From contig NZ_MTQN01000012.1 of assembly GCF_001984195.1 (NCBI RefSeq), forward strand, positions 1,550,001 through 1,614,000: a DNA stretch of 64,000 nt, read 5' to 3'. The DNA comes from Kribbella sp. ALI-6-A (lineage in GTDB: Bacteria; Actinomycetota; Actinomycetes; Propionibacteriales; Kribbellaceae). The translations under genes were made by a program, and so were the position numbers. This document shows, piece by piece, positions 43,026-61,138 of the stretch (positions are counted from its first letter, which is position 1; the number at the start of each line of letters is the position of its first letter). The notes beneath the pieces were generated by a model that saw nothing but the letters and a program-made list of their open reading frames with translations, did not search any database and was not told the DNA's origin.

Positions 43026-44258
43026 ATGCGCCCTCTGCGCAAGCTTGCCGTCACCGCTGCTGCTCTGCTCCTCGTCCCCCTCGCCCCTGCCGCCGTTCCA
43101 GCCGCCGCTGATCCATCCTCCAAGCAGGACTGGGTCGGCAGCTGGGCCGTCGCCGTCACTCCCCCGGGTACGTCGGGCCTGTCCGCGACCGGCGTCACCG
43201 ACACCACCCTGCGGCAGGTCGCGCACCTGTCGGTCGGCGGGTCGGAGCTGCGGCTCAGGCTCTCCAACGTCTACGGCACCAGCCCGCTCAAGGTCGGCAA
43301 GGTGACCGTCACTCCGCGATCCGATGCGCTCGCTGGTACGCCGACGGTCGATCCGGCCAAGCTGGTCCCGGTCGCCTTCGGTGGCCGGCCGTCGGTCACG
43401 ATCCCGGTCGGAGCCGAGTGGGTCTCCGACCCGGTCCGGCTCGACGTCCCCGACGACACCGACCTGGTGATCAGCACGTACTTCCCGGGACCGACCGGGC
43501 CGTTGACCCAGCACCCGGCCGGGTACGCGACCGGCTTCTCGGCGGCCGGTGACCAGACCGGCAGCGCCGGTACGGCGTACGCGACGATCCCGGGGATGGC
43601 CCGGTACGTGATCGAAGGCGTCGACGTGAAGAGCCGGGTGCGCGGATCGGTGGTGCTCTTCGGGGACTCGATCACCGACGGCGTTGTGTCGCCGGTGGAC
43701 AAGAACCTGCGCTACCCGGACCAGTTGGCCGACCGGTTGCTGGCGCAGCCCGGCTGGCGTGAGCTCGGGGTGCTCAACGCGGGCATCAGCGGGAACCGGC
43801 TGCTGGCGAACGCCGGTACGGCGGGAGACTCGGCGCTGGCGCGCTTCGACCGGGACGTGCTCGGACAGACCGCGGCACGCAGTGTCGTCCTGCTGGAGGG
43901 CATCAACGACATCGGGAACAGCCGGGGTGCGACCGATCCGGCCGACCTGATCGCGGTGCACCGGCAGTTCATCCAGCGCGCGCGGGAGGCCGGGTTGAAG
44001 GTGTTCGGGGCGACGCTCACGCCGTACGAGGGAGCCGGGTACTACTCGGTCGAGGGAGAGGCGGATCGGCAGGCGCTGAACCACTGGATCCGGACGTCGG
44101 GCGAGTACGACGGCGTGGTCGACTTCGACAAGGCGGTGCGCGACCCGCAGCAGCCCGGCCGGATGCTGCCGGCCTACGACGTCGGCGACCACCTGCACCC
44201 GAACGCGGAGGGCTTCAAGGCGATGGCCGCGGCGTTCGACCTGAAGGCGCTGAGCTAA
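43026..44258 (+). CDS. Secreted SGNH/GDSL hydrolase (copy 2)
   Basis: 410 residues with a clear Sec signal (MRPLRKLAVTAAALLLVPLA) and a GAGAGGTGAT site upstream. Same plan as copy 1 and highly similar throughout: VVLFGDSITDGVVSPVDKNL, GISGNRLLANAG, LLEGINDIGN, DHLHPNAEGF. A tandem duplication; both copies retain the catalytic Ser, Asn, Asp and His, so both are probably active, perhaps on different esters. Overlaps the convergent lyase stop by 4 bp. Confidence 0.92.
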   Translation: MRPLRKLAVTAAALLLVPLAPAAVPAAADPSSKQDWVGSWAVAVTPPGTSGLSATGVTDTTLRQVAHLSVGGSELRLRLSNVYGTSPLKVGKVTVTPRSDALAGTPTVDPAKLVPVAFGGRPSVTIPVGAEWVSDPVRLDVPDDTDLVISTYFPGPTGPLTQHPAGYATGFSAAGDQTGSAGTAYATIPGMARYVIEGVDVKSRVRGSVVLFGDSITDGVVSPVDKNLRYPDQLADRLLAQPGWRELGVLNAGISGNRLLANAGTAGDSALARFDRDVLGQTAARSVVLLEGINDIGNSRGATDPADLIAVHRQFIQRAREAGLKVFGATLTPYEGAGYYSVEGEADRQALNHWIRTSGEYDGVVDFDKAVRDPQQPGRMLPAYDVGDHLHPNAEGFKAMAAAFDLKALS

Positions 44259-45682
44259 CCCGCTTCGGCGGGGTGCTCGACCTGGCGGTCGCCCCATTGG
44301 GTCATCAGGCCCCGGGCGATCTCCAGGTCGTCGCGCAGTGAACGGTCGGCGAGGGCCGGCGGGAGTGCGACCAAGGCGTCGGCCAGCCAGGGGCCGATGG
44401 ATGCGGGAGCGAGATCGTCGGGAGTGATACCGGCCAGGCGGATCGCCCGCACGGCGGTGACCAGTTCGCAGGCCAGCACCTCCCGGAGGGCGTCGAGCAG
44501 TTGGGTGGTGAGAACGGCCGCCTGTGGGGCGAAGCTGGCGTGGTGCTCCGCGCCGCGCGAGAGGGTGGCCGTGCCCAGGGTCGCCGGTTGCGCGGTCGAG
44601 CGGACCGCGGACAACGCGTCGTGCGCGACGTACTCGATCATCATCACGCCGGAACTCGCCTCGGCGCCGCTGGCCAGGAAGCGGGACAGGCCGGTGAAGT
44701 CGGGATCCACCAGGTTGGCGACGCGGGACGTGGACAACGTGGCGACGCTGTGCAGGCTGAGTCGCAGCGAGTCCAGCGCAAGCGCGATCGGCATCGCGTG
44801 CCAGTTGCCGTTGTGCAGGACGGTGCCGCCGGCCACCAGCGGGTTCTCGGCCGAGGCGTTGATGTCGATCCGCAAAGCGTTGCCCAAGGCATCTACATGG
44901 TCGACGGCCGGACCGAGTACCTGGGCGAAGGCGCGCAGGCCGAAGGGGTCCTGAATCCGCGCGGCCGCGAGCGGCAGCCCTGCGAGCAGCCCGCGCATCC
45001 GGGTGGCGACGCGCACCTGACCGGGCTGCGGTCGCGCCTCGTGCACGCGGACGTCGTACACCTCGGCGTTGCCGCGCATCGCGACGTGGGACAGCGCGCC
45101 GACCAGGGGAACGACGTTGATCAGCGTCGACGCCTCGACGTACGCCAGGCAGCACTCCGCCAACGTGATCGCGTTGCTCGACAGCAGCGGCAGCGCGCTG
45201 GTCCCGTCGATCACGTCGCCGAGGGCGAGGCCGAGCTCGGCGAGCGGTCCGAGATCGCCGGTACCGATCGCGCCGCCGCGATGCAGATCGGGCAGGTCGT
45301 CCTCGTTGAGCAACGTGACGATCGCCTCGGCGACCTCGGGCGCGAGTCCCGAGCCGCCGGCCGCGAGCTGGTTGACGCGGATCAGCAGACCGAGCCGGAC
45401 GACGTCCCGCGGGTACGGCGTGGTGCCGGTGGTCGAGTGCGACGCGAGCAGGCGAGTGCCGTGCTCGGGGTCGGTGGTGAGCACGTCCCGGTTGGCGCCG
45501 ACGCCGGTGGTCCGGCCGTAGACGGGTTGGTGCCGGGCGATCTCGGTGACCGCCGCGGCCGAGTCGGCCATCCGTTTGCGGGCGACCTCACCCAGGCGGA
45601 CCGGCGTACGACGCTGGCCCAGGGCAACGGCCGTCAACGGCGTCAGTCCGGCCCCGGACAGCTCGATCGGCTCCACAGCCAC
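44255..45682 (-). CDS. HAL/PAL-family lyase paralogue lacking MIO triad
   Basis: 475 residues, alignable to histidine/phenylalanine ammonia-lyases: VYGRTTGVGANRD (Tyr55 kept), HRGGAIGTGDLGPLAELGLA, RIQDPFGLRAFAQVLGP. The Ala-Ser-Gly triad that cyclises to the MIO cofactor is replaced by Gly140-Thr141-Gly142. The Asn of LALINGT becomes Ser (LPLLSSN), the Tyr of QDPYSLR is Phe247, and the Glu of VSExK is Ala. Arg250 is kept. So this is not an ordinary MIO enzyme; it may be a MIO-free lyase (ergothionase is such a homologue) or a non-catalytic protein. It shares an 18-bp operator with hutH. Confidence 0.85.
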   Translation of the reverse strand: MAVEPIELSGAGLTPLTAVALGQRRTPVRLGEVARKRMADSAAAVTEIARHQPVYGRTTGVGANRDVLTTDPEHGTRLLASHSTTGTTPYPRDVVRLGLLIRVNQLAAGGSGLAPEVAEAIVTLLNEDDLPDLHRGGAIGTGDLGPLAELGLALGDVIDGTSALPLLSSNAITLAECCLAYVEASTLINVVPLVGALSHVAMRGNAEVYDVRVHEARPQPGQVRVATRMRGLLAGLPLAAARIQDPFGLRAFAQVLGPAVDHVDALGNALRIDINASAENPLVAGGTVLHNGNWHAMPIALALDSLRLSLHSVATLSTSRVANLVDPDFTGLSRFLASGAEASSGVMMIEYVAHDALSAVRSTAQPATLGTATLSRGAEHHASFAPQAAVLTTQLLDALREVLACELVTAVRAIRLAGITPDDLAPASIGPWLADALVALPPALADRSLRDDLEIARGLMTQWGDRQVEHPAEAG

Positions 45683-45730: not shown

Positions 45731-45748
45731 TGTCTCGAATCCGAGACG
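45731..45748. promoter_or_regulatory. hut-type operator before lyase paralogue
   Basis: TGTCTCGAATCCGAGACG, with inverted arms GTCTCG and CGAGAC around AATC, 48 bp before the lyase start and inside the 68-bp gap after the SMP-30-like gene. Identical over 18 bp to the site before hutH at 50698-50715. The IclR regulator in this locus is the natural candidate to bind both. Confidence 0.75.
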
Positions 45749-45750
45749 CG

Positions 45751-46587
45751 TCAGCCGAACCGAGGGATCGGGATCGCGACCACCTCGTACGGCGGTGCCG
45801 CCGCCTCACCCTTCGCGAACTGCCCGTTGACCACCAGCAGGCGTTCGCCGTCGGTGGCGAGCGTCGTGGGGGTGTCGAACGCGGGATCGGTGTGCCGGCC
45901 GAGGTGAGTCGCGGCGCGGCCGTCCGGCGACAGCTCGAGCGCGGCCAGGAAGAACTCGGCGGTCGCCAGGGTGTCGCCCTCGTTGCAGACCCCGATCAGC
46001 GTGCTGCCGGTCAGCAGCAGGCCGTCGGCAGCGAATCCGGTGGCGAGCGCAGTTGCCGACAGGTCGGCCAGGTCGAGCCGCCAGAGGACCTCGGTGCCTT
46101 GGGCGGCGATCAGCAGGGCAGTGCCGTCGGCGGAGACGACGATCCCGTTGAGATAGGCGTCCGGGCCGGCGGCGGGGAGGTCCAGCGCGGTCGGTGGCGC
46201 GTCCGAGCCCAGGTCGAAGCACCAGACGACCGGCCGCGAGGAGTCCGTCGCATATGCGAGGTCGCCGATCACGCAGACGTCGTTCAGGTAACCGTCGACG
46301 TGCCACCGGAAGACGAGCGCGCAGCTGTTGACGTCGTACGTGAACAGATCACCGGTCTTGCCGCCGCAGACGACGAGCAGGCCGCGGGAGGCGAAGGTCA
46401 GGCCGAGGGCGACCGTCCGTCCGCCCGCACCGGCCGGGGACCAGATCTCGGCGACCGCCGCGTCGAGCGCGCAGCGGTAGAGCGTCCCGTCCGCGCTGCT
46501 GCCGGCGAAGAACGTGCCGTCGGGGCCGACAGTGATGCCTTCGGGCCGGACACGGCCGCCGGGCAGGTGGTACGCGGTGGCGGGCAT
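45751..46587 (-). CDS. SMP-30/gluconolactonase-like protein
   Basis: 278 residues. YHLPGGRVRPEGITVGPDGT, YLNDVCVIGDLAYATDSSRP, AYLNGIVVSADGTALLIAAQ and GFAADGLLLTGSTLIGVCNE are the repeated blades and Asn/Asp metal-ligand loops of SMP-30-type six-bladed propellers, often lactonases. Cytoplasmic. It lies directly upstream of the lyase paralogue on the same strand, and a long palindrome sits 24 bp before its start, so the pair is likely regulated together. A ring-opening hydrolase acting with the lyase is possible. Confidence 0.8.
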   Translation of the reverse strand: MPATAYHLPGGRVRPEGITVGPDGTFFAGSSADGTLYRCALDAAVAEIWSPAGAGGRTVALGLTFASRGLLVVCGGKTGDLFTYDVNSCALVFRWHVDGYLNDVCVIGDLAYATDSSRPVVWCFDLGSDAPPTALDLPAAGPDAYLNGIVVSADGTALLIAAQGTEVLWRLDLADLSATALATGFAADGLLLTGSTLIGVCNEGDTLATAEFFLAALELSPDGRAATHLGRHTDPAFDTPTTLATDGERLLVVNGQFAKGEAAAPPYEVVAIPIPRFG

Positions 46588-46610
46588 GGCCGCACGGTAG
46601 TGCGCGAGCG

Positions 46611-46651
46611 CTTCCTTTGTCCCGGAAACAGACGTTCCGGGACAAAGGAAG
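46611..46651. promoter_or_regulatory. 17-bp-arm palindrome upstream of SMP-30-like gene
   Basis: CTTCCTTTGTCCCGGAA (46611-46627) and TTCCGGGACAAAGGAAG (46635-46651) are perfect inverted repeats around a 7-base loop, 24 bp before the ATG (minus strand). The TGTCCCG halves resemble TGTCTCG of the hut-type site but with wider spacing. Position favours an operator or 5' leader hairpin rather than a terminator. Confidence 0.6.
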
Positions 46652-46736
46652 GCCCGCCGATCCTGGGGGAGGGAGATCAGCGGGCCGGGGTGGCAGCGGC
46701 CGCCGGGTCGAGCGGCGACCGTGCCTGGTTCTAGGG

Positions 46737-46763
46737 GGGCGCGGGTTGGTCGAACCCGCGCCC
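46737..46763 (-). terminator. Hairpin terminator after bL31B
   Basis: GGGCGCGGGTT (46737-46747) pairs with AACCCGCGCCC (46753-46763) around GGTCG, 6 bp beyond the bL31B stop. Confidence 0.75.
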
Positions 46764-48139: not shown

Positions 48140-48169
48140 TTGAAAATGATTACCAACTCAACCTACACT
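48140..48169 (+). promoter_or_regulatory. Zur box within a sigma-70-type promoter
   Basis: TGAAAATGATTACCA (48141-48155) closely matches the actinobacterial Zur operator (TGAAAATGATTTTCA type). It overlaps TTGAAA (48140-48145), which pairs with TACACT (48164-48169) at an 18-bp spacing to form a promoter towards bL33/uS14. The divergent COG0523-like gene starts 25 bp away on the other side, so one zinc-bound Zur could silence both arms. Confidence 0.85.
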
Positions 48170-48791: not shown

Positions 48792-49550
48792 TCAGCCGCG
48801 GAGGCGGCGGGTGAGGGCGTCGGCGGCCTGGCGGACTCGGCGGGCCAGGAGGGAGCGTTCGCCCGGCGTGACCGCGTCGCTGCGGAAGGAGATGCTGATC
48901 GCGGCGGCGGGGTGGCCGGCGTGGTCGACGGCGGCGCTGGCGACCGAGGTGACGCCGGCGGTGACGTGGGACTCCTCGATCGCATAGCCCTGCTGGCGTT
49001 CGTCGGCGAGCAGGCGGCGGAGCTGGCTCAAAGTCTGTGGGCCGTGGTCGGTGCGGCGGACGAAGGTCTCGGGTGTCGGGAAGAGGGCGCGGACCTGCGC
49101 GGGCGGTAGAGCTGCGAGCAGAGCCCGGCCGGAAGCGGTGAGTGTCGCGGGGAGGCGGACGCCGACGTCGGTGACCAAGGTGACCGGGCGAGGGGGCTGT
49201 TCCTTCAGCAGGTAGACCAGCTCACGCCCGTGCAATACGCCGAGATGCGCGGTGTGACCGACCTCGGCGACGAGCTGGGCCAGCAACGGACGCGCCAGGC
49301 GCTCCAGCGGATCGTGCCGCAGATAGGCCGAACCGATCTCGAACGCCGCGACGCCCAGCCCGTAGCGCTTGTCCTCCGGCAGGTGCACGACGAAGCCCTC
49401 GTCGATCATTGCCCGCAGCAAGTGGTACGTCGACGAGCGTGGCAGGCCGACCGCGGAGGCGATGCGCTCCATCGGTACGGGGCCGGGCTGGGTGGCCAGG
49501 AAGGTCAGGACCCGCAGGGTCCGGGTCGAGGCGGGAACGTTGCCGCTCAC
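48792..49550 (-). CDS. IclR-family regulator, probable hut regulator
   Basis: 252 residues. N-terminal winged helix (MERIASAVGLPRSSTYHLLR) and C-terminal IclR effector domain (HTAHLGVLHGRELVYLLKEQ, LPATLTASGRALLAAL, YAIEESHVTAGVTSVASAAV). It lies between the two halves of the histidine-degradation locus. The 18-bp inverted repeats before hutH and the lyase paralogue are its likely targets. Effector unknown; urocanate or histidine would be typical of hut control. Confidence 0.85.
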   Translation of the reverse strand: MSGNVPASTRTLRVLTFLATQPGPVPMERIASAVGLPRSSTYHLLRAMIDEGFVVHLPEDKRYGLGVAAFEIGSAYLRHDPLERLARPLLAQLVAEVGHTAHLGVLHGRELVYLLKEQPPRPVTLVTDVGVRLPATLTASGRALLAALPPAQVRALFPTPETFVRRTDHGPQTLSQLRRLLADERQQGYAIEESHVTAGVTSVASAAVDHAGHPAAAISISFRSDAVTPGERSLLARRVRQAADALTRRLRG

Positions 49551-50697: not shown

Positions 50698-50715
50698 TGT
50701 CTCGAATCCGAGACG
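50698..50715. promoter_or_regulatory. hut operator before hutH
   Basis: TGTCTCGAATCCGAGACG, identical to the site at 45731-45748; arms GTCTCG/CGAGAC around AATC. It lies 54 bp before the hutH start and 36 bp from the divergent GNAT gene. Confidence 0.8.
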
Positions 50716-50769: not shown

Positions 50770-52314
50770 GTGGAGACAGCCGAAGTAGTGGTGGGCACGG
50801 GCCCGATGGCCGCCGATGACGTGGTCGCGGTGGCCCGGTACGGCGCGGCGGTGCGAATCGACGACCACGCGCTGGAGGAGATCGCGAAGTCGCGGGCGGC
50901 GATCGAGGCGCTGGCGCACGCGGACACTCCGCACTACGGGGTGTCGACCGGGTTCGGTGCCCTGGCGACGCGGCACATCGCGCCCGAACTGCGGGCGCAG
51001 TTGCAGCGCAGCCTGGTCCGGTCGCACGCGGCGGGTTCGGGCCCCGAGGTGGAGGCCGAGGTCGTGCGCGCGCTGGCCCTGCTGCGACTGTCGACGCTCG
51101 CCACCGGGCGGACCGGCGTGAAGGTCGAGACAGCCCAGGCGTACGCCGGACTGCTGAACGCCGGGCTGACGCCGGTCGTGCACGAGTACGGCAGCCTGGG
51201 GTGCTCCGGCGATCTCGCGCCGCTGTCCCATGTCGCGCTCGCGGTGATGGGTGAGGGCAAAGTCCGCGACCGCGACGGCAACCTGCTCGACGCCGGCGAG
51301 GCGCTCGCGGCCCACGGCCTGCAGCCCGTCGTGCTGGCCGAGAAGGAAGGCCTCGCGCTGATCAACGGGACCGACGGCATGCTGGGCATGCTCGTCCTCG
51401 CGCTCGCCGACCTCGACCGGCTGCTGAAGACCGCCGACATCGCGGCCGCGATGAGCGTCGAGGGCCAGCTGGGCACCGACCGGGTGTTCGCCGCCGACCT
51501 GCAGGCGCTGCGCCCGCACCCAGGACAGGCCGCCGCTGCCGCGAACCTGCGCGCCGTACTGGCCGACAGTGCGATCGTCGCCAGCCATCGTGGTCCGGAC
51601 TGCAACCGGGTCCAGGACGCGTACTCGTTGCGTTGCTCCCCGCAGGTGCACGGCGCCGCGCGGGACACCGTCGCCCACGCGGCGACCGTCGCCGGCCGCG
51701 AACTCGCCGCCGCGATCGACAACCCGGTCGTGCTGCCCGACGGCCGGGTCGAGTCGAACGGCAACTTCCACGGCGCCCCGGTCGGCTACGTGCTGGACTT
51801 CCTGGCGATCGCCGTCGCCGACGTGGCGAGCATCAGCGAACGACGGACCGACCGCTTCCTCGACGTCGCCCGCAACCACGGGCTGAACGCGTTCCTCGCC
51901 GACGACCCGGGCGTCGACAGCGGCCACATGATCGCGCAGTACACCCAGGCCGCGATCGTGTCCGAGCTGAAGCGGCTCGCCGTCCCGGCCAGCGTCGACT
52001 CGATCCCGAGCAGCGCGATGCAGGAGGACCACGTGTCGATGGGCTGGTCCGCCGCCCGCAAGCTGCGCCGCGCGATCGACGGCCTGGAACGCGTCCTGGC
52101 CGTCGAGATCCTGACCGCCGCCCGCGCCCTGGACCTGCGCGCGCCGCTCGAGCCCGCGCCCGCCACCGGCGCCGTACGGCGTGCGCTGCGTGAGCACGTC
52201 GAGGGCCCGGGCACCGACCGCCACCTGGCCCCTGAGATCGAGCACTCCGTCCGGCTTGTTGCCGACGGCACCTACCTGTCCGCCACCGAGGCCGTCACCG
52301 GCCCGCTCGCCTGA
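50770..52314 (+). CDS. hutH: Histidine ammonia-lyase
   Basis: 514 residues; GTG start. Converts L-histidine to urocanate and ammonia. The MIO motif is GSLGCSGDLAPLSH (Cys145-Ser146-Gly147, cysteine in the first position as in some actinomycete HutH), the active-site Tyr is in HYGVSTGFG, and LALINGT, NRVQDAYSLRCSPQVHG and SSAMQEDHVSMGW keep all catalytic residues. This intact enzyme contrasts with the degenerate paralogue at 44-46 kb. hutU follows 15 bp later. Confidence 0.96.
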   Translation: METAEVVVGTGPMAADDVVAVARYGAAVRIDDHALEEIAKSRAAIEALAHADTPHYGVSTGFGALATRHIAPELRAQLQRSLVRSHAAGSGPEVEAEVVRALALLRLSTLATGRTGVKVETAQAYAGLLNAGLTPVVHEYGSLGCSGDLAPLSHVALAVMGEGKVRDRDGNLLDAGEALAAHGLQPVVLAEKEGLALINGTDGMLGMLVLALADLDRLLKTADIAAAMSVEGQLGTDRVFAADLQALRPHPGQAAAAANLRAVLADSAIVASHRGPDCNRVQDAYSLRCSPQVHGAARDTVAHAATVAGRELAAAIDNPVVLPDGRVESNGNFHGAPVGYVLDFLAIAVADVASISERRTDRFLDVARNHGLNAFLADDPGVDSGHMIAQYTQAAIVSELKRLAVPASVDSIPSSAMQEDHVSMGWSAARKLRRAIDGLERVLAVEILTAARALDLRAPLEPAPATGAVRRALREHVEGPGTDRHLAPEIEHSVRLVADGTYLSATEAVTGPLA

Positions 52315-52329
52315 AAGGCTGGATCACCC

Positions 52330-53985
52330 ATGTCCGGACCCCGTCCCGTACGCGCATCCCGCGGCACCACTCTGACCGCCCAGGGCTGGCCGCAGGAAGC
52401 CGCGCTGCGGATGCTGCAGAACAACCTCGACCCCGAGGTCGCCGAGCACCCCGACGAGCTGGTCGTGTACGGCGGTTCCGGCAAGGCCGCGCGGGACTGG
52501 AACTCCTTCGACGCGATGGTCCGCACGCTGACCACGCTGAAGGACGACGAGACGATGCTGGTCCAGTCCGGCCGCCCGGTCGGCGTGATGCGCACGCACG
52601 AGTGGGCGCCGCGGGTGCTGATCGCGAACTCCAACCTGGTCGGCGACTGGGCCAACTGGGAGGAGTTCCGCAAGCTGGAGGCGCTCGGGCTGACCATGTA
52701 CGGCCAGATGACGGCCGGTTCGTGGATCTACATCGGGACCCAGGGCATCCTGCAGGGCACCTACGAGACGTTCGCCGCGGTCGCGGAGAAGAAGTTCGGC
52801 GGCACGCTGGCCGGGACGATCACGCTGACCGCCGGACTCGGCGGGATGGGCGGCGCGCAGCCGCTCGCGGTGACGATGAACGACGGCGTCGCGATCTGCG
52901 TCGACGTCGACGAGTCGCGCATCCAGCGCCGGATCGAGCACCGCTACCTCGACGTCCGGGCCGACTCCGTCGACGACGCGCTGCGGCTGGCCGAAGAGGC
53001 GAAGAAGGCCCGCCGGCCGCTGTCGATCGGTGTCCTCGGCAACGCCGCGGTGATCGTGCCGGCACTGCTGGAACGCGGCGCGCCGATCGACATCGTCACC
53101 GACCAGACCTCGGCGCACGACCCGCTGATGTACCTGCCGGTGGGTGTGGACTTCGAGGACTGGGGCGCCGCGCGGCAGAAGGACCCGGCAGGGTTCACCG
53201 AGCGCGCGCAGGCATCGATGGCCCGGCACGTCGCGGCGATGGTCGGCTTCCAAGACGCGGGCGCCGAGGTGTTCGACTACGGCAACTCGATCCGCGACGA
53301 GGCACGCAAGGCCGGCTACAACCGGGCCTTCGACTTCCCGGGCTTCGTGCCGGCGTACATCCGGCCGCTGTTCTGCGAGGGCAAGGGCCCGTTCCGGTGG
53401 GCGGCGCTGTCGGGCAACCCGGCGGACATCGCGAAGACCGACCGGGCGATTCTCGAACTCTTCCCGGACAACGAGCACCTGACCCGGTGGATCAAGATGG
53501 CCGGTGAGCGGGTCGCGTTCCAGGGGCTGCCGGCCCGGATCTGCTGGCTCGGGCAGGGCGAGCGGGACAAGGCCGGCCTGCGGTTCAACGAGATGGTCGC
53601 CTCCGGTGAGCTCGAGGCGCCGATCGTGATCGGGCGGGACCACCTGGACACCGGCAGCGTCGCTTCGCCGTACCGGGAGACCGAGGGCATGCTGGACGGC
53701 TCGGACGCGATCGCGGACTGGCCGCTGCTCAACGCGCTGGTGAACACCGCCAGCGGCGCCTCCTGGGTGTCGATCCACCACGGCGGCGGGGTCGGGATGG
53801 GCCGGTCGATCCACGCCGGTCAGGTGTCGGTTGCCGACGGCACCGAGCTGGCGCGGCAGAAGCTCGAGCGGGTGCTGAGCAACGACCCGGCGATGGGCGT
53901 GATTCGGCACGTCGACGCCGGGTACGAGACAGCGGCGGAGGTCGCGGCCGAGCAGGGTGTCCGGATTCCGATGCAGGAGTCCTGA
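52330..53985 (+). CDS. hutU: Urocanate hydratase
   Basis: 551 residues, ATG start. Converts urocanate to 4-imidazolone-5-propionate using tightly bound NAD. Family marks: [68 protein letters not shown] and [18 protein letters not shown]. Normal length. Second gene of the hut operon. Confidence 0.97.
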
Positions 53986-54149: not shown

Positions 54150-55148
54150 ATGATCGAGTTCGAATCCGTCACCAAGCAGTACCCGGACGGCACGGTGGCC
54201 GTCGACACCCTGAGCCTGCGGATCCCGAGCAACGAGATCACCGTGTTCGTCGGCCCCTCGGGCTGCGGCAAGACGACCTCGCTGCGGATGATCAACCGCA
54301 CGATCGAGCGGACCAGCGGCCGGATCTCGATCGACGGCGAGGACATCAACGCCGGCGACCCGGTCACGCTGCGGCGCGGGATCGGCTACGTGATCCAGCA
54401 CGCCGGACTGTTCCCGCACAAGACCGTCGTCGACAACGTCGCGACGGTGCCGAAGCTGCTCGGCTGGGACAAGCGCAAGACCCGGGCGACCGCGATGGAG
54501 CTGCTGGAGCGGGTCGGGCTCGACCCCAAGCTGGCCGAGCGGTACCCGGCCCAGCTGTCCGGTGGTCAGCAGCAGCGCGTCGGCGTCGCTCGCGCGCTCG
54601 CGGCCGACCCGAAGATCATGCTGATGGACGAGCCGTTCAGCGCGGTCGACCCGGTCGTGCGCCACCAGTTGCAGGAGGAGCTGCTGCGCCTGCAGCGCGA
54701 CATCGGCAAGACGATCGTGTTCGTCACCCACGACATCGACGAAGCGATCAAGCTCGGCGACAACGTCGCGGTCCTGCGGGTCGGCGGCAAGCTCGCCCAG
54801 TTCGCGCCCCCGGCGGAGCTGCTGGCCAAGCCGGCCGACGAGTTCGTCGAGGGCTTCATCGGTCAGGATCGTGGTTATCGCGCGCTGACCTTCGTCACGG
54901 CGGAGAACCTGCCGCTCGGCCCGGTCCCGGCGGACCTCGCGATCGGTGCGGACGGAAAGCCGGCCGGCTGGCGCAAGGACGGCGACACCTTGCCGGTCGG
55001 CGCGGTGTTCCAGCGCGGCGACTCGCTGCGGGCCGCGATGGACTCCGTGCTCACATCGCCGATCGGGCAGGGCGTCTGCGTCGACGAGGCAGGCAAGCCG
55101 GTCGGCGTGATCGACTACACCGGCCTGACCGGGGTGCTGCGCCCATGA
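54150..55148 (+). CDS. OpuC/ProV-type ABC transporter ATPase
   Basis: 332 residues. Walker A GPSGCGKTT (residues 35-43), Q-loop VIQHAGLFPHKTV, signature QLSGGQQQR, Walker B IMLMDEPFSAVD, H-loop VFVTHD; two C-terminal CBS-like segments (GDSLRAAMDSVL, VGVIDYTGLTGVLR) as in quaternary-amine transporters, which sense ionic strength. It starts 164 bp after hutU, and a weak TAGGAT element (54108-54113) could give it an extra promoter. Powers the importer encoded by the next three genes. Confidence 0.93.
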   Translation: MIEFESVTKQYPDGTVAVDTLSLRIPSNEITVFVGPSGCGKTTSLRMINRTIERTSGRISIDGEDINAGDPVTLRRGIGYVIQHAGLFPHKTVVDNVATVPKLLGWDKRKTRATAMELLERVGLDPKLAERYPAQLSGGQQQRVGVARALAADPKIMLMDEPFSAVDPVVRHQLQEELLRLQRDIGKTIVFVTHDIDEAIKLGDNVAVLRVGGKLAQFAPPAELLAKPADEFVEGFIGQDRGYRALTFVTAENLPLGPVPADLAIGADGKPAGWRKDGDTLPVGAVFQRGDSLRAAMDSVLTSPIGQGVCVDEAGKPVGVIDYTGLTGVLRP

Positions 55149-55795
55149 GGTGGGTCGACGACAACAGCCTGCTGATCTGGGAGCAGTTACGCGAGCACCT
55201 CTATCTCGCGCTGATCCCGATGGTGCTCGGACTGCTGATCTCGGTCCCGCTCGGGTACGTGGCGACGCGGTACAGCTGGCTGGCCAACCCGCTCGTCGCG
55301 CTCGGCGGCGTGCTCTACTCGCTGCCGTCGATCGCCCTGTTCATCGTGCTGCCGGCGCTGATCGGCACGAAGGTGCTGTCGGCGGCGAACATCATCATCG
55401 CGCTGACCATCTACGCGGTCTCGCTGCTGATCCGCAACGTGATCGACGGGTTGCGCTCGGTGCCCGAAGAGGTGCTGCAGGCCGCGGTGTCGGTGGGCTA
55501 TGGAACGCTGCGCAGGGTGATGACCATCGACCTGCCGATCGCGGTCCCGGTGATCTTCGCCGGGCTGCGGGTCGTCACGGTCGCGAACATCTCGATGGTC
55601 AGCGTCGGCGCGATCATCGGGATCGGCGGCCTGGGCGAGCTGTTCACGCTCGGCTTCCAGCAGGACTTCCTGACCCCGATCGTGGTCGGCGTCGTCCTGT
55701 CGCTCGCGCTGGCCCTGCTGGCCGACGTCGCGCTGGTCGGTCTGCAACGCGTGCTCACGCCGTGGGCCCGGGTCAACACCCCGAAGGAGGCCTGA
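55145..55795 (+). CDS. OpuC-type ABC transporter permease 1
   Basis: 216 residues, five or six membrane helices, overlapping the ATPase gene by 4 bp (ATGA). The coupling-helix EAA loop reads VPEEVLQAAVSVGYGTLRRV and the pattern NISMVSVGAIIGIGGLGELF is typical of ProW/OpuCB proteins. Pairs with the next gene as the membrane channel. Confidence 0.93.
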   Translation: MRWVDDNSLLIWEQLREHLYLALIPMVLGLLISVPLGYVATRYSWLANPLVALGGVLYSLPSIALFIVLPALIGTKVLSAANIIIALTIYAVSLLIRNVIDGLRSVPEEVLQAAVSVGYGTLRRVMTIDLPIAVPVIFAGLRVVTVANISMVSVGAIIGIGGLGELFTLGFQQDFLTPIVVGVVLSLALALLADVALVGLQRVLTPWARVNTPKEA

Positions 55796-55796
55796 C

Positions 55797-56513
55797 ATGG
55801 TGCAGGGATTCCTCGACTTCATCAGCGACCCGGCGAACTGGTCCGGCGCCGAAGGCATCGGCAACCGGATCCTGCAGCACCTGGCGTACACGTTCCTGTC
55901 GCTGGCGATCGCCGCGCTGATCGCACTGCCGATCGGCCTGCTGATCGGGCACACCCGGCGCGGCGCGTTCCTGGCGATCAACACCGGTAACGCGGCCCGC
56001 GCGCTGCCGACGCTGGGTCTGCTGACGCTGATCGTGCTGCTGATCGGCATCGGCCGGGTGCCGGTGATCATCGCGCTCGTCGTGCTGGGCATCCCGCCGA
56101 TCATGGCCTCGACGTACGCCGGGGTGTCCGGCGTCGACCGGGCCACGATCGACGCCGCCCGCGGGATGGGCATGACCGGCCGGGAGATCCTCACCAAGGT
56201 GGAGATCCCGATCGCGTTGCCGCTGATCATCTCCGGCCTGCGCAGCGCCACCCTGCAGATCGTCTCGACCGCGACCGTGGCGGCGTACGTCGCCCTCGGC
56301 GGGCTGGGACGGTACGTGATCGACGGGCTGAGTCTGCGGGACTTCCCGCAGATGCTGACCGGCGCCGTCCTGGTCGCCGTACTGGCGATCCTGCTCGACC
56401 TGGTCTTCGCCCTCGCCGCGCGGTACGCCGTCTCGGCCGGGCTGACCGGCCGGCTGCGGCGCAACACCGACACCAAGACTTCCACTGCTCCGGCACCGGC
56501 CGGGGTGCAGTAA
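55797..56513 (+). CDS. OpuC-type ABC transporter permease 2
   Basis: 238 residues, about six membrane helices, 1 bp after permease 1. EAA-type loop IDAARGMGMTGREILTKVEI and ATLQIVSTATVAAYVALGGL match OpuCD. With separate permeases and a lipoprotein receptor, the system has the four-gene OpuC plan rather than the three-gene ProU plan. Confidence 0.93.
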   Translation: MVQGFLDFISDPANWSGAEGIGNRILQHLAYTFLSLAIAALIALPIGLLIGHTRRGAFLAINTGNAARALPTLGLLTLIVLLIGIGRVPVIIALVVLGIPPIMASTYAGVSGVDRATIDAARGMGMTGREILTKVEIPIALPLIISGLRSATLQIVSTATVAAYVALGGLGRYVIDGLSLRDFPQMLTGAVLVAVLAILLDLVFALAARYAVSAGLTGRLRRNTDTKTSTAPAPAGVQ

Positions 56514-56533: not shown

Positions 56534-57472
56534 GTGTTCAGAAGAACCTTCATCCGCAGCGCCATCGCCGCGACGGCCGTGTTCGCGCTCGCAGCCTGCG
56601 GCGGTGGTGAGGACCCGCTGAGCGGCGGCGGCGACAACGACGCCGGCGGCGGCTCGGCGCCCGACAAGGTCGACTCGCTCACCGTCGGCTCGGCCAACTT
56701 CGCCGAGAGCCAGGTGCTGGCCGAGATCTACGCCCAGGCGCTGGAGGCCAAGGGCATCAAGGTCAACCGGAAGCTGAACATCGGCGCCCGGGAGCTCTAC
56801 ATGGCCGCGATCCAGGACAAGTCGGTCGACCTGCTGCCGGAGTACACCGGCGCGACCCTGGTCTACTTCAAGAAGGACGCCACCGAGAACGAGGCCGAGG
56901 CCGTCTACAAGGCGATTCCGGGCGTCCTGCCGGCCGGGCTCGAGGTGCTGAACAAGTCCGAGGCGGCCGACGAGGACGCGATCGTGGTGACCCAGGAGAC
57001 CGCGCAGAAGTACTCGCTGAAGTCGATCGGCGACCTGAAGGCGGTCAGCAAGGACATGGTCGCGGGCGGTGGCCCGGAGTTCAAGACGCGGACCGCGGGC
57101 CTGGCCGGCATGAAGGAGAAGTACGGCGTCGAGTTCAAGGAGTTCAAGACGCTGGACGCCGGTGGACCGCTGAGCCTGAAGGCGCTGAAGGACGGCACCA
57201 TCCAGGTGACGCAGTTCTTCACCACCCAGTCGGCGATCAAGGACAACAACCTGGTCGTGCTGGAGGACCCCGAGCACATCCACCTGCCGAACAACATCGT
57301 TCCGCTGATCCGGACCGACCACAAGAGCCCTGACGTCGAGACGACGCTGAACGCGGTCCAGGCCAAGCTCACCACCGACGGCCTGACCGACCTGGTCAAG
57401 CGCGCCGAGGGTGGCAGCGAGTCCGCCGCCGCCGTCGCGAAGGACTGGCTGTCGAAGAACCCGCTGTCTTGA
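56534..57472 (+). CDS. OpuAC-type substrate-binding lipoprotein
   Basis: 312 residues, GTG start with TGGAGGAT upstream; lipobox FALAACGGG. SLTVGSANFAESQVLAEIYA, KLNIGARELYMAAIQDKSVD and LLPEYTGATLVYF are OpuAC family blocks. Known members bind glycine betaine, choline, carnitine, and in EgtU ergothioneine. Because it lies inside the hut operon, histidine, urocanate or a histidine betaine is the likely cargo (inference). Overlaps the next gene by 4 bp. Confidence 0.92.
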   Translation: MFRRTFIRSAIAATAVFALAACGGGEDPLSGGGDNDAGGGSAPDKVDSLTVGSANFAESQVLAEIYAQALEAKGIKVNRKLNIGARELYMAAIQDKSVDLLPEYTGATLVYFKKDATENEAEAVYKAIPGVLPAGLEVLNKSEAADEDAIVVTQETAQKYSLKSIGDLKAVSKDMVAGGGPEFKTRTAGLAGMKEKYGVEFKEFKTLDAGGPLSLKALKDGTIQVTQFFTTQSAIKDNNLVVLEDPEHIHLPNNIVPLIRTDHKSPDVETTLNAVQAKLTTDGLTDLVKRAEGGSESAAAVAKDWLSKNPLS

Positions 57473-58668
57473 CCGACTCCTTCGAACAGATGTGGACGGC
57501 CCTGTCCGCCGTCGGCCGTGACCCCTCCACCGGGGGTTACCGCCGCGGCGGCTGGACCGCCACCGAACGAGAAGCCACGCGCTGGTTCGTCGACCAGTGC
57601 GCGGCGCGGGACCTGACTCTGGAGTCCGACGGTATCGGCAACCTCGTCGCCTGGTGGAACCCTTCCTCGTCGTCCGAGAAGGGGGTCGTGACGGGCAGCC
57701 ATCTGGACTCGGTGCTGGACGGCGGCGCTTTCGACGGACCGTTGGGTGTGGTGTCGGCGCTGGCCGCGGTCGACCAGTTGCGGGCCGAGGGTTTCCAGCC
57801 TTCGGTGCCGGTGGGTGTGGGCGCCTTCGTGGAAGAGGAAGGCAGCCGGTTCGGGATGCCTTGTCTGGGATCCCGGGTTGCTGCCGGGGTGCTGGCGCCG
57901 GAGAAGGCGTTGAAGCTGCAGGACCGGAACGGGGTTCTGCTGGCTGACGCTCTGGAAGGCGCCGGGATCGACCCGGCCGGCGTAGGACCCTCGCCGCTGC
58001 TGGAGCGGATGGGGACCTTCGTCGAGCTGCACGTCGAGCAGGGCCGGGCCTTGACGGCGCCGGTGGGTGTGGCGAGCTCGATCTGGCCGCACGGGCGGTT
58101 CCGGTTCACGTTCGGCGGCGAGGCCAACCACGCCGGCACGACGCTGATGGAAGACCGGCACGACCCGATGCTCACCTACGCGATGACCGCGCTGGGGGCC
58201 AACAAGCAGGCCCGGCTGGCCGGCGCTCGCGCGACCTTCGGCCGGCTGTCCGTCGAGCCGAACGGGACCAACGCCGTACCGTCGCAGGTGACCGCCTGGC
58301 TCGACGCCCGCGCGGCCTCGACCGAAGTCCTGGAACAGTTGCTGGCGGCAATCACCCGGCAGGCGACGGAGCGGGCCGAGCGGGACGGAACGACCGTCGA
58401 GGTCGTCGCCGAGTCGGTCTCCCCGGTGGTCGACTTCCCGGCGGGACTGCGCGACCGGCTGGCCGCCGTACTGGATGGTGCGCCGGTGCTGCCGACCGGT
58501 GCCGGGCACGACGCCGGAGTGTTCTCCGACGCCGGGATCCCGACCGCGATGCTGTTCGTTCGCAACCCGACCGGGATCTCGCACTCCCCGGCCGAGCACG
58601 CGGAGATGGACGACTGTCTGGCCGGCGTCGACGCGCTGGCGGCGGTGCTGAAAGACCTCGCCCGGTGA
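57469..58668 (+). CDS. M20 amidohydrolase, probable N-formylglutamate deformylase
   Basis: 399 residues, TTG start overlapping the receptor stop (TTGA). M20/ArgE-AllC family: TGSHLDSVLDGGAFDGPLGV (His78, Asp89 metal ligands), FVEEEGSRFG (Glu123/124), ELHVEQGRAL, and the dimerisation lid. By sequence it would be called allantoate or carbamoyl-amino-acid amidohydrolase. The next gene, hutF, makes N-formylglutamate, and no HutG is present, so this enzyme most likely removes the formyl group. Streptomyces hut loci have the same neighbour, which supports this role. Confidence 0.85.
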   Translation: MTDSFEQMWTALSAVGRDPSTGGYRRGGWTATEREATRWFVDQCAARDLTLESDGIGNLVAWWNPSSSSEKGVVTGSHLDSVLDGGAFDGPLGVVSALAAVDQLRAEGFQPSVPVGVGAFVEEEGSRFGMPCLGSRVAAGVLAPEKALKLQDRNGVLLADALEGAGIDPAGVGPSPLLERMGTFVELHVEQGRALTAPVGVASSIWPHGRFRFTFGGEANHAGTTLMEDRHDPMLTYAMTALGANKQARLAGARATFGRLSVEPNGTNAVPSQVTAWLDARAASTEVLEQLLAAITRQATERAERDGTTVEVVAESVSPVVDFPAGLRDRLAAVLDGAPVLPTGAGHDAGVFSDAGIPTAMLFVRNPTGISHSPAEHAEMDDCLAGVDALAAVLKDLAR

Positions 58669-59975
58669 CGGCGTACTGGTGCGCCCGGGCGGTCCTGCCG
58701 TCCGGGGTCGCCGACGGCGTGCTGGTCACGGTGGAGGACGGGCGGATCACTGCGGTCTCGTCCGGTGCCGCCCAGCCGCCCGGCGCGGTCAGGCTCGACG
58801 GCCTTGTCCTCCCCGGCCTGGCAAACTGCCACAGCCACGCGTTCCACCGGGCGCTGCGCGGTCGTACCCAGACCGAGCGCGGGACCTTCTGGACCTGGCG
58901 CGAGCAGATGTATGCCGTCGCGTCCGTGCTCACGCCGGACAGCTACTACCGGCTCGCCCGCGCCGTGTACGGCGAAATGCTGCTCACCGGCATCACCGTG
59001 GTCGGCGAGTTCCACTACCTGCACCACGCCCCCGGCGGCCGCCGGTACGACGACCCGAACGCGATGGGCGAGGCCCTGATCGCGGCCGCCCGCGACGCCG
59101 GCCTGCGGATCGCGCTGCTCGACACCTGCTACGTGGCCGGCGGCATCGACCAGCCGCTGAACGAGGTGCAGCAGCGGTTCAGCGACGGCGACGCGGCCGG
59201 CTGGGCCTCGCGCGTCGGACGGCTGCGCGGGTCGGACGGTGTGGTGATCGGGGCGGCCGCGCACTCGGTGCGAGGTGTCCCGGCCGATCAGCTCGGCGCG
59301 GTGGCCGGCTTGTTGCCTGAGGCACCTTTGCATGTGCACCTGTCGGAACAGGTCGCGGAGAACCAGGCCTGCGTGGCGGCGTACGGGCGGACGCCGACGC
59401 AGGTGCTCGACGAAGCCGGCTTCCTGAGCGCGCGGACGAGTGCCGTGCACGCGACGCACCTGACGCCGGTCGACGTCGGACTGCTCGGCAGCTCCGCGAC
59501 GTACTCGTGCTTCTGCCCGACGACCGAGCGCGACCTGGCCGACGGGATCGGTCCGTCGGTCGCGCTGCGTGCGGCTGGATCGACGGTGACGTTGGGGTCG
59601 GACAGTCACGCCGTGGTCGACTTGTTCGAGGAGATGCGGGCGGTCGAGCTGGACGAGCGGCTCGCGTCGCAGGAGCGCGGTCACTGGTCGGCGCCTGAGT
59701 TGCTGGCCGCGGCGACGGCCGACGGGCATCGATCGCTGGGGTTCGCCGATGCCGGGAAGATCGAGGTCGGGGCGCGCGCGGATCTGGTCGCCGTACGGAC
59801 CGACAGTGTGCGGACGGCGGGGACCGGGGCGTCGGTGGAGACGGCCGTGTTCGCGGCGTCCGGGGCCGACGTCACCGACGTGGTCGTCGACGGCGTTCAT
59901 CGTGTTGCTCAGGGCAATCATTCGACATTCGACGTGGCAGCCGAACTGGCGGCCGCGATCGCGGAGGTGACATGA
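58665..59975 (+). CDS. hutF: Formimidoylglutamate deiminase
   Basis: 436 residues, GTG start overlapping the M20 gene by 4 bp. Amidohydrolase fold with [17 protein letters not shown] (His56, His58), [33 protein letters not shown] and [12 protein letters not shown]. Hydrolyses N-formimidoyl-L-glutamate to N-formyl-L-glutamate and ammonia, the five-step branch of histidine degradation. Confidence 0.94.
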
Positions 59976-61138
59976 GCTCGTTGCTGCTGACCGGGATCAG
60001 CTCGCTGGTGACCAACGACCCGCAGCACGGACCGCTGCTCGGCGAGTTGCACGACGCCGCGTTGGTGGTCGAAGGCAACAAGGTTGCCTGGGTGGGACCC
60101 CGCACGGCGGCTCCCGCGGCGGACGCCTCGATGGACCTGGGCGACCGGGCCGTCGTACCGGGCTTCGTGGACTCGCACGCGCACCTGGTGTTCGCCGGTG
60201 ACCGGGCCGAGGAGTTCGCGGCGCGGATGACCGGGCAGCCGTACAGCGCCGGCGGCATCCGGACGACGGTCGCCGCGACCCGCGAAGCGGCCGACCAGCA
60301 GCTCGCCGCGAACGTCGCCCGGCTGGTCGCGGAGATGCGGCGGCAGGGAACGACGACGGTCGAGATCAAGTCGGGCTACGGGCTGACGGTGGCCGACGAG
60401 GCGCGCTCGCTGGCGGTCGCGGCCGACTTCACCGACGAGACGACGTACTTGGGGGCGCACGTCGTACCGGCTGAGTTCGCTGACGATCCGGGCGGTTACG
60501 TCGACCTGGTCACGGGGCCGATGCTCGACGCCGCGGCCAAGCATGCGAAGTGGGTCGACGTCTTCGTCGAGCGCGGTGCCTTCGACGCGGACCAGGCCCG
60601 GGCGATTTTGCGCGCCGGACAGGCGGCTGGTCTGTCGGCACGGGTGCACGCCAACCAGTTGGGCGAAGGGCCCGGCGTACAGGTCGCTTGCGAGGTCGGC
60701 GCCGCGGCGGCTGACCACTGCACGTTCCTGACCGACGCCGACGTGGACGCGATGGCCTCCGCCGGAGTCGTCGCGGGGTTGCTGCCGGCCATCGAGTTCT
60801 CCACCCGCTCGCCGTACCCCGACGCCCGCCGCCTCCTGGACGCCGGCGTCACCGTCGCGCTGGCGACGGACTGCAACCCCGGCTCGGGCTATTCGTCGTC
60901 CATGCCGTTCTGCATCGCGCTCGCCGTCCGCGAGATGCGGATGAGTCCCGCCGAAGCCCTCTGGTCCGCCACCGCCGGCGGCGCCGCGTCTCTGCGCCGT
61001 ACCGACGTCGGCCATTTGGGCGTCGGCGCTCGCGCCGACCTGGCCGTGCTGGATGCGCCGTCGTACGTGCATCTCGCGTACCGGCCGGGCGTCCCGCTGG
61101 TCACCAAGACCTTCATCGGTGGCCGCCCGGTCATCTGA
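59972..61138 (+). CDS. hutI: Imidazolonepropionase
   Basis: 388 residues, ATG overlapping hutF by 4 bp. [16 protein letters not shown] (His69, His71), [53 protein letters not shown] and [15 protein letters not shown] are the HutI signatures. Hydrolyses imidazolone propionate to formimidoylglutamate, the substrate of HutF. Last gene of the hut operon. Confidence 0.96.

Follow-up and report, generated by a model that had tools for sequence, protein, structure and literature searches.

Profile libraries place one protein of the Kribbella sp. ALI-6-A hut locus, together with its clade, nearest to histidine ammonia-lyase (HAL), though MIO cannot form in it, and the question is what such a protein does about 5 kb from an ordinary hutH (50.8-52.3 kb). 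The window analysed here is a stretch of 64,000 nucleotides, and its main features are collected in Table 1. The HAL fold of the 475-residue MIO-less protein is indicated by its match to PF00221 (Pfam search, E=4e-95), while its scores fall below the curated cut-offs for histidine ammonia-lyase, with 243.7 bits against 539.15 for the HutH equivalog TIGR01225 and 253.6 bits against 524 for NF006871. Strictly conserved in every Kribbella genome examined and preceded by the same 16-bp palindrome as hutH, it is more likely an active enzyme acting on some histidine-like compound than a dead copy.

Table 1. Features of the window that bear on the MIO-less gene.
Feature	Position	Strand	Basis and remarks
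MIO-less HAL-family gene	44255..45682	(-)	475 aa, GTG start; PF00221
16-bp palindrome GTCTCGAATCCGAGAC, putative operator	45732..45747	.	49 bp upstream of the MIO-less start codon
IclR-family regulator, which may read the palindrome	48792..49550	(-)	IclR profile matches; putative assignment
Identical 16-bp palindrome GTCTCGAATCCGAGAC	50699..50714	.	upstream of hutH
hutH, MIO-type histidine ammonia-lyase	50770..52314	(+)	CSG triad; above NCBIfam hutH cut-offs; predicted start
hutU, urocanate hydratase	52330..53985	(+)	TIGR01228 E=1e-277
Importer ATPase, betaine-family (QAT/OpuC-type) ABC	54150..55148	(+)	sequence; conserved neighbour
Importer permease 1	55145..55795	(+)	sequence; conserved neighbour
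Importer permease 2	55797..56513	(+)	sequence
Importer substrate-binding protein	56534..57472	(+)	EgtU alignment
M20-family amidohydrolase, hut operon	57469..58668	(+)	NF006770 E=1.5e-183
hutF, formimidoylglutamate deiminase	58665..59975	(+)	profile search
hutI, imidazolonepropionase	59972..61138	(+)	profile search

The active site was aligned with those of PpHAL (1gkm), the neighbouring HutH and ergothionase 6s7j. The MIO loop, GSVG-ASG-D in PpHAL and GSLG-CSG-D in HutH, reads GAIG-TG-D in the MIO-less protein, and the loss of the triad amounts to a one-residue deletion with a Ser to Thr replacement that leaves G140-T141-G142-D143. This GTG departs from the Ala/Cys/Thr-Ser-Gly from which MIO forms, and since the alignment check found no ASG, CSG or TSG elsewhere in register, the absence of the triad, first proposed in a sequence-only reading of the locus, stands. 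The side chain of the loop Thr is dispensable, because one relative (L012) has Ile at this site. N195 of PpHAL has become S168, as part of an SSNA motif that is new here, and F247 stands in place of Y280, whereas Y53, H83, Q277, R283 and E414 are kept as Y55, H82, Q244, R250 and E379. The earlier reading had correctly called the Asn to Ser and Tyr to Phe replacements and the retention of Tyr55 and Arg250, all of which are seen in the PpHAL alignment, but its claim that the conserved Glu is Ala came from misaligning A378: PpHAL Q413-E414 pairs with A378-E379, so the Gln became Ala and the catalytic Glu was kept. E379 corresponds to ergothionase E411 and is invariant in all 16 aligned clade members, the Ser-His histidine-recognition motif is intact (S81-H82), and Y55, H82, Q244, R250 and E379 are unchanged among clade members as distant as 38% identity. 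In HAL, the SH motif serves histidine recognition, the Tyr and Glu414 catalysis, and the Asn, Gln and Arg positioning (PMC11432326). The protein has therefore kept a histidine-shaped pocket and the base but has lost the electrophile and some of what surrounds it. An AF2 model reached a pLDDT of 70.8 overall, with the active-site loops below 50, and its active site was for this reason set aside. The model has the HAL fold, and a structure search with it ended in a tie, with Z scores of 31.3 for HAL 7tqr and 31.2 for ergothionase.

The MIO-less gene is carried by all 38 Kribbella genomes searched, a set that includes the source genome, at 86-96% identity. There are no internal stops in 22 orthologues, and the median dN/dS of 0.095, alongside 0.111 for hutH and 0.098 for hutU, shows strong purifying selection. 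A tree calculated without the motif columns unites 22 actinobacterial representatives (Streptomyces-like and others) and the window protein in a single clade (100/100) that lies outside the MIO-HALs (100/97), and so the gene is not a recent copy of hutH. Ergothionase 6s7j falls weakly on the side of this clade (78/38), and a quick tree without the long branch L165 groups the two at 88.7 SH-aLRT. About 27 of 395 sampled genomes of the class have a clade member, most of these with a score gap from HutH, and nearly every carrier checked has an ordinary HutH as well. No further carriers turned up among 38 class relatives near one carrier, G041, and no relatives were found in viral_contigs. In two clade members from Streptomyces-like genomes (L014 in G193 and L015 in G023), some 110-170 extra residues are inserted in frame after the MIO-loop helix, at query residues 154-157.

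A tie to the hut pathway that is new here lies in the DNA upstream. Footprinting of the regions upstream of the MIO-less gene and hutH first uncovered the shared palindrome, and a scan of the 8.1-Mb genome gave exactly two matches to GTCTCGNATNCGAGAC, one before each of these genes, and none to the backward control of this pattern. Of the 21 other Kribbella loci, 20 have the palindrome at the same distance from the MIO-less gene, about -65, and with no more than two mismatches; it also precedes each of the 16 Kribbella hutH genes scanned. Having this putative operator in common with hutH, the MIO-less gene therefore belongs to the hut regulon in Kribbella. In L171, a locus from another family, hutH and an IclR gene flank this palindrome, and for that reason the IclR-family protein of the window is the likely reader. 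The earlier suggestion of a link to the hut pathway is thus supported by the shared putative operator and by conserved synteny, beyond what its author could see.

Upstream, between 46773 and 48732, lies a zinc-type group of genes. Its minus-strand members are L31 and an MRF/COG0523 GTPase, its plus-strand members are small genes that by eye encode L33-like and S14-like ribosomal proteins, and a Zur-like box, TGAAAATGATTACCA, separates the two sets at 48141-48155. In Kribbella the MIO-less gene runs in the same direction as L31 and the MRF GTPase, and membership of a zinc (Zur) operon was considered. A zinc role is not favoured, because L31 is followed by what by eye is a hairpin, there is a gap of 130-1091 bp, and the gene has its own hutH-type putative operator. 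An ORF at 45754-46758, between L31 and the MIO-less gene, resembles an SMP-30/NHL propeller by eye and has no Pfam or NCBIfam matches; in the other named Kribbella loci it did not turn up as a neighbour.

Downstream of hutH the order is hutU, the ABC importer, the M20 amidohydrolase, hutF and hutI, and the hutU is of the ordinary type, scoring under the thiourocanate hydratase cut-off. Across 33 clade loci outside Kribbella, within the stretch fetched, 25 have the importer, 14 have hutH/U/F/I or M20, and 27 have either, the commonest arrangement being an MIO-less gene divergent from the importer. In five loci (L172-L175 and L179) the gene accompanies the importer with hut genes absent nearby; in G041 it directly follows the binding-protein gene within a full hut operon. 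Seven loci with a clade member (L164, L170, L171, L172, L181, L182 and L183) also encode, nearby, a member of a recurrent protein family marked by a DVHQHLW motif towards the start of the sequence. By eye this family resembles amidohydrolases, and it has no Pfam or NCBIfam matches; six of the seven loci have a LacI-type regulator as well. The family possibly belongs to another step or pathway.

The binding protein of the importer was compared with EgtU, which encloses the trimethylammonium of ergothioneine in a cage of F293, N339, Y341, Y419 and Y443, while E375 contacts the imidazole and the carboxylate is bound by K242, T296 and R379 (PMC9732360). In the Kribbella protein N339, Y341 and Y443 are replaced by D, D and N, while E375 and R379 are kept. 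Hut-type binding proteins mostly have D at 339, an invariant D at 341 and N, Q, E or A at 443, as far as the alignment, on which these assignments depend, allows. Acids thus take the place of the betaine cage in Kribbella and in almost every relative, and only G041 keeps it intact. An acid-lined pocket is better suited to a free ammonium, for example that of histidine, than to a betaine. Betaine import was accordingly rejected as proof of a betaine substrate, G041 excepted. The D/D-type importer was also tried as a marker of the MIO-less gene and rejected, since it occurs in genomes without that gene and is not diagnostic of it. Cage-to-acid binding proteins of the OpuC/EgtU family are widespread in hut loci of actinobacteria, and they are candidates for a histidine-specific variant.

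Taken together, we give a probability of about 0.45 to the view that the MIO-less protein is a lyase acting on a histidine derivative. It would then be an active, MIO-free protein of the HAL fold within the hut regulon, in which Tyr55 may assist a 1,2-elimination on a derivative whose leaving group is too good to need MIO, and its product, urocanate or an analogue, would be passed to HutU. The leading candidate is hercynine, the histidine betaine, from which trimethylamine would depart much as it leaves without MIO when ergothionase converts ergothioneine to thiourocanate. Hercynine could come from uptake by another route or from internal synthesis, and the genome can probably make it, because an EgtD homologue is present (E=2.9e-118). 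A lyase is supported by the ergothionase-like deletion and SxNA motif, the weak tree grouping, the invariant Y55, H82, Q244, R250 and E379 and the low dN/dS, as it is by the palindrome, the hut and importer synteny, the intact cage and hut operon of G041, the EgtD homologue and the HAL fold. Against a lyase, and a betaine substrate in particular, speak the acid-lined importer pocket, the absence of ergothionase R59 and K383 and the low confidence of the AF2 active site. The earlier proposal of a histidine betaine as substrate was consequently not established, with R59 and K383 unshared and Asp/Asp/Asn in place of the importer cage in Kribbella and almost every relative, though not in G041; hercynine itself, though the leading candidate, is rather unlikely to be the substrate. 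Tentatively, the clade may represent a second, MIO-independent entrance to the hut pathway, widespread in actinobacteria, in which a lyase co-induced with hutH would yield urocanate or an analogue from a histidine derivative not known to be degraded in this manner by any enzyme.

The main rival, and a serious one even if somewhat unlikely, is a pseudoenzyme that binds histidine or urocanate without turnover and acts as a regulator of HutH, of the importer or of the IclR protein, perhaps in a hetero-oligomer. The residue pattern would fit a mere binder as well, the ligand-binding residues being retained while MIO, N195 and often Y280 are gone, and a regulatory role agrees with the ordinary HutH that accompanies the gene, with co-regulation through the shared putative operator and with its mostly divergent position relative to the importer. 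Against a pseudoenzyme speak a base Tyr and catalytic Glu that are invariant over a deep clade, the same changes in ergothionase, an active enzyme, and the several relatives that have the importer and no hut genes nearby. Quite improbable is an MIO-free lyase for a free-amine histidine derivative, for example one modified on the ring so as to have a beta-proton acidic enough to depart without MIO. The importer, which keeps E375 and R379 and has D, D and N/Q in place of the cage, would suit such a compound. In addition, plasmids of Klebsiella and Rhizobium carry an independent MIO-less lineage beside an importer of this type, and in Rhizobium a CoA-transferase and beta-oxidation genes accompany the two. 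Since this importer also occurs without the MIO-less gene, it may simply carry histidine, and we know of no natural free-amine substrate of this kind. An ordinary ergothionase that turns ergothioneine into thiourocanate and trimethylamine would share the deletion and the SxNA motif, but the lack of conservation of R59 and K383 and the ordinary hutU make it very improbable. A decayed, non-functional duplicate of hutH, which the missing triad might bring to mind, can be dismissed as close to negligible, contradicted as it is by the presence of the gene throughout Kribbella, its stop-free reading frames, the selection data and its position outside the MIO-HAL clade.

The place of the protein in the hut regulon matters, as a conserved MIO-free clade there points to an undescribed catabolic step and, were hercynine the substrate, to a trimethylamine route in soil actinobacteria. 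PF00221 alone is an unsafe basis for assigning histidine or aromatic lyase activity. The source genome itself has a third, very divergent PF00221 paralogue, with AGE replacing SGD and a QAPVSFR motif, whose partner is an ornithine-cyclodeaminase/mu-crystallin-family gene (L102, 9263-10540 and 10591-11604; G000:C7:291762-293039); the same was noted in L183 (12973-15478), and G498 has a similar pair.

Three known or newly seen systems invite comparison. With HutH (PF00221, TIGR01225) the window protein has in common the fold, the Ser-His motif, the base Tyr, the carboxylate Arg, the catalytic Glu and the hut regulon, and it differs in lacking the MIO triad, in the replacement of N195 and Y280 and in its separate clade. 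Ergothionase of Treponema denticola (PDB 6s7j/6s7q), to our knowledge the sole MIO-free member with a solved structure, is likewise a HAL fold without MIO. Its loop, SSIG-EG-D, has the identical one-residue deletion, the change of NGT to SxNA is common to both, and both keep the Tyr, His, Gln, Arg and Glu and lack Tyr280, so that the parallel drawn in the earlier reading holds up, with a tree grouping that is weak. The two align structurally at about 22% identity; R59 and K383 of ergothionase, which we take to be catalytic, correspond to T and Y of the window protein. At position 350 almost every clade member has Glu, and ergothionase and HutH have Gln. The window protein, unlike ergothionase, belongs to a hut locus and regulon. 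A second MIO-less lineage was seen on plasmids of Klebsiella pneumoniae (NZ_CP092405.1; L162, 3986-5518) and Rhizobium beringeri (pRlX1; L163, 3968-5518), where the proteins are annotated as aromatic amino acid ammonia-lyase. The neighbours are hutU, hutD, hutC and hutF in the former and a CoA-transferase, 3-hydroxyacyl-CoA dehydrogenase and enoyl-CoA hydratase in the latter, and some 196 Klebsiella plasmid records have a HAL-family match of any lineage. The plasmid lineage resembles the window protein in its lost triad, its hut or importer neighbourhood and its importer type, and differs by a three-residue deletion (GSVG---YLIATAH) and by its nesting within the MIO-HALs in the tree, so that its loss of MIO is independent. 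HutH, the MIO-less clade, ergothionase and the plasmid lineage thus make up a natural series on how the HAL scaffold functions free of MIO.
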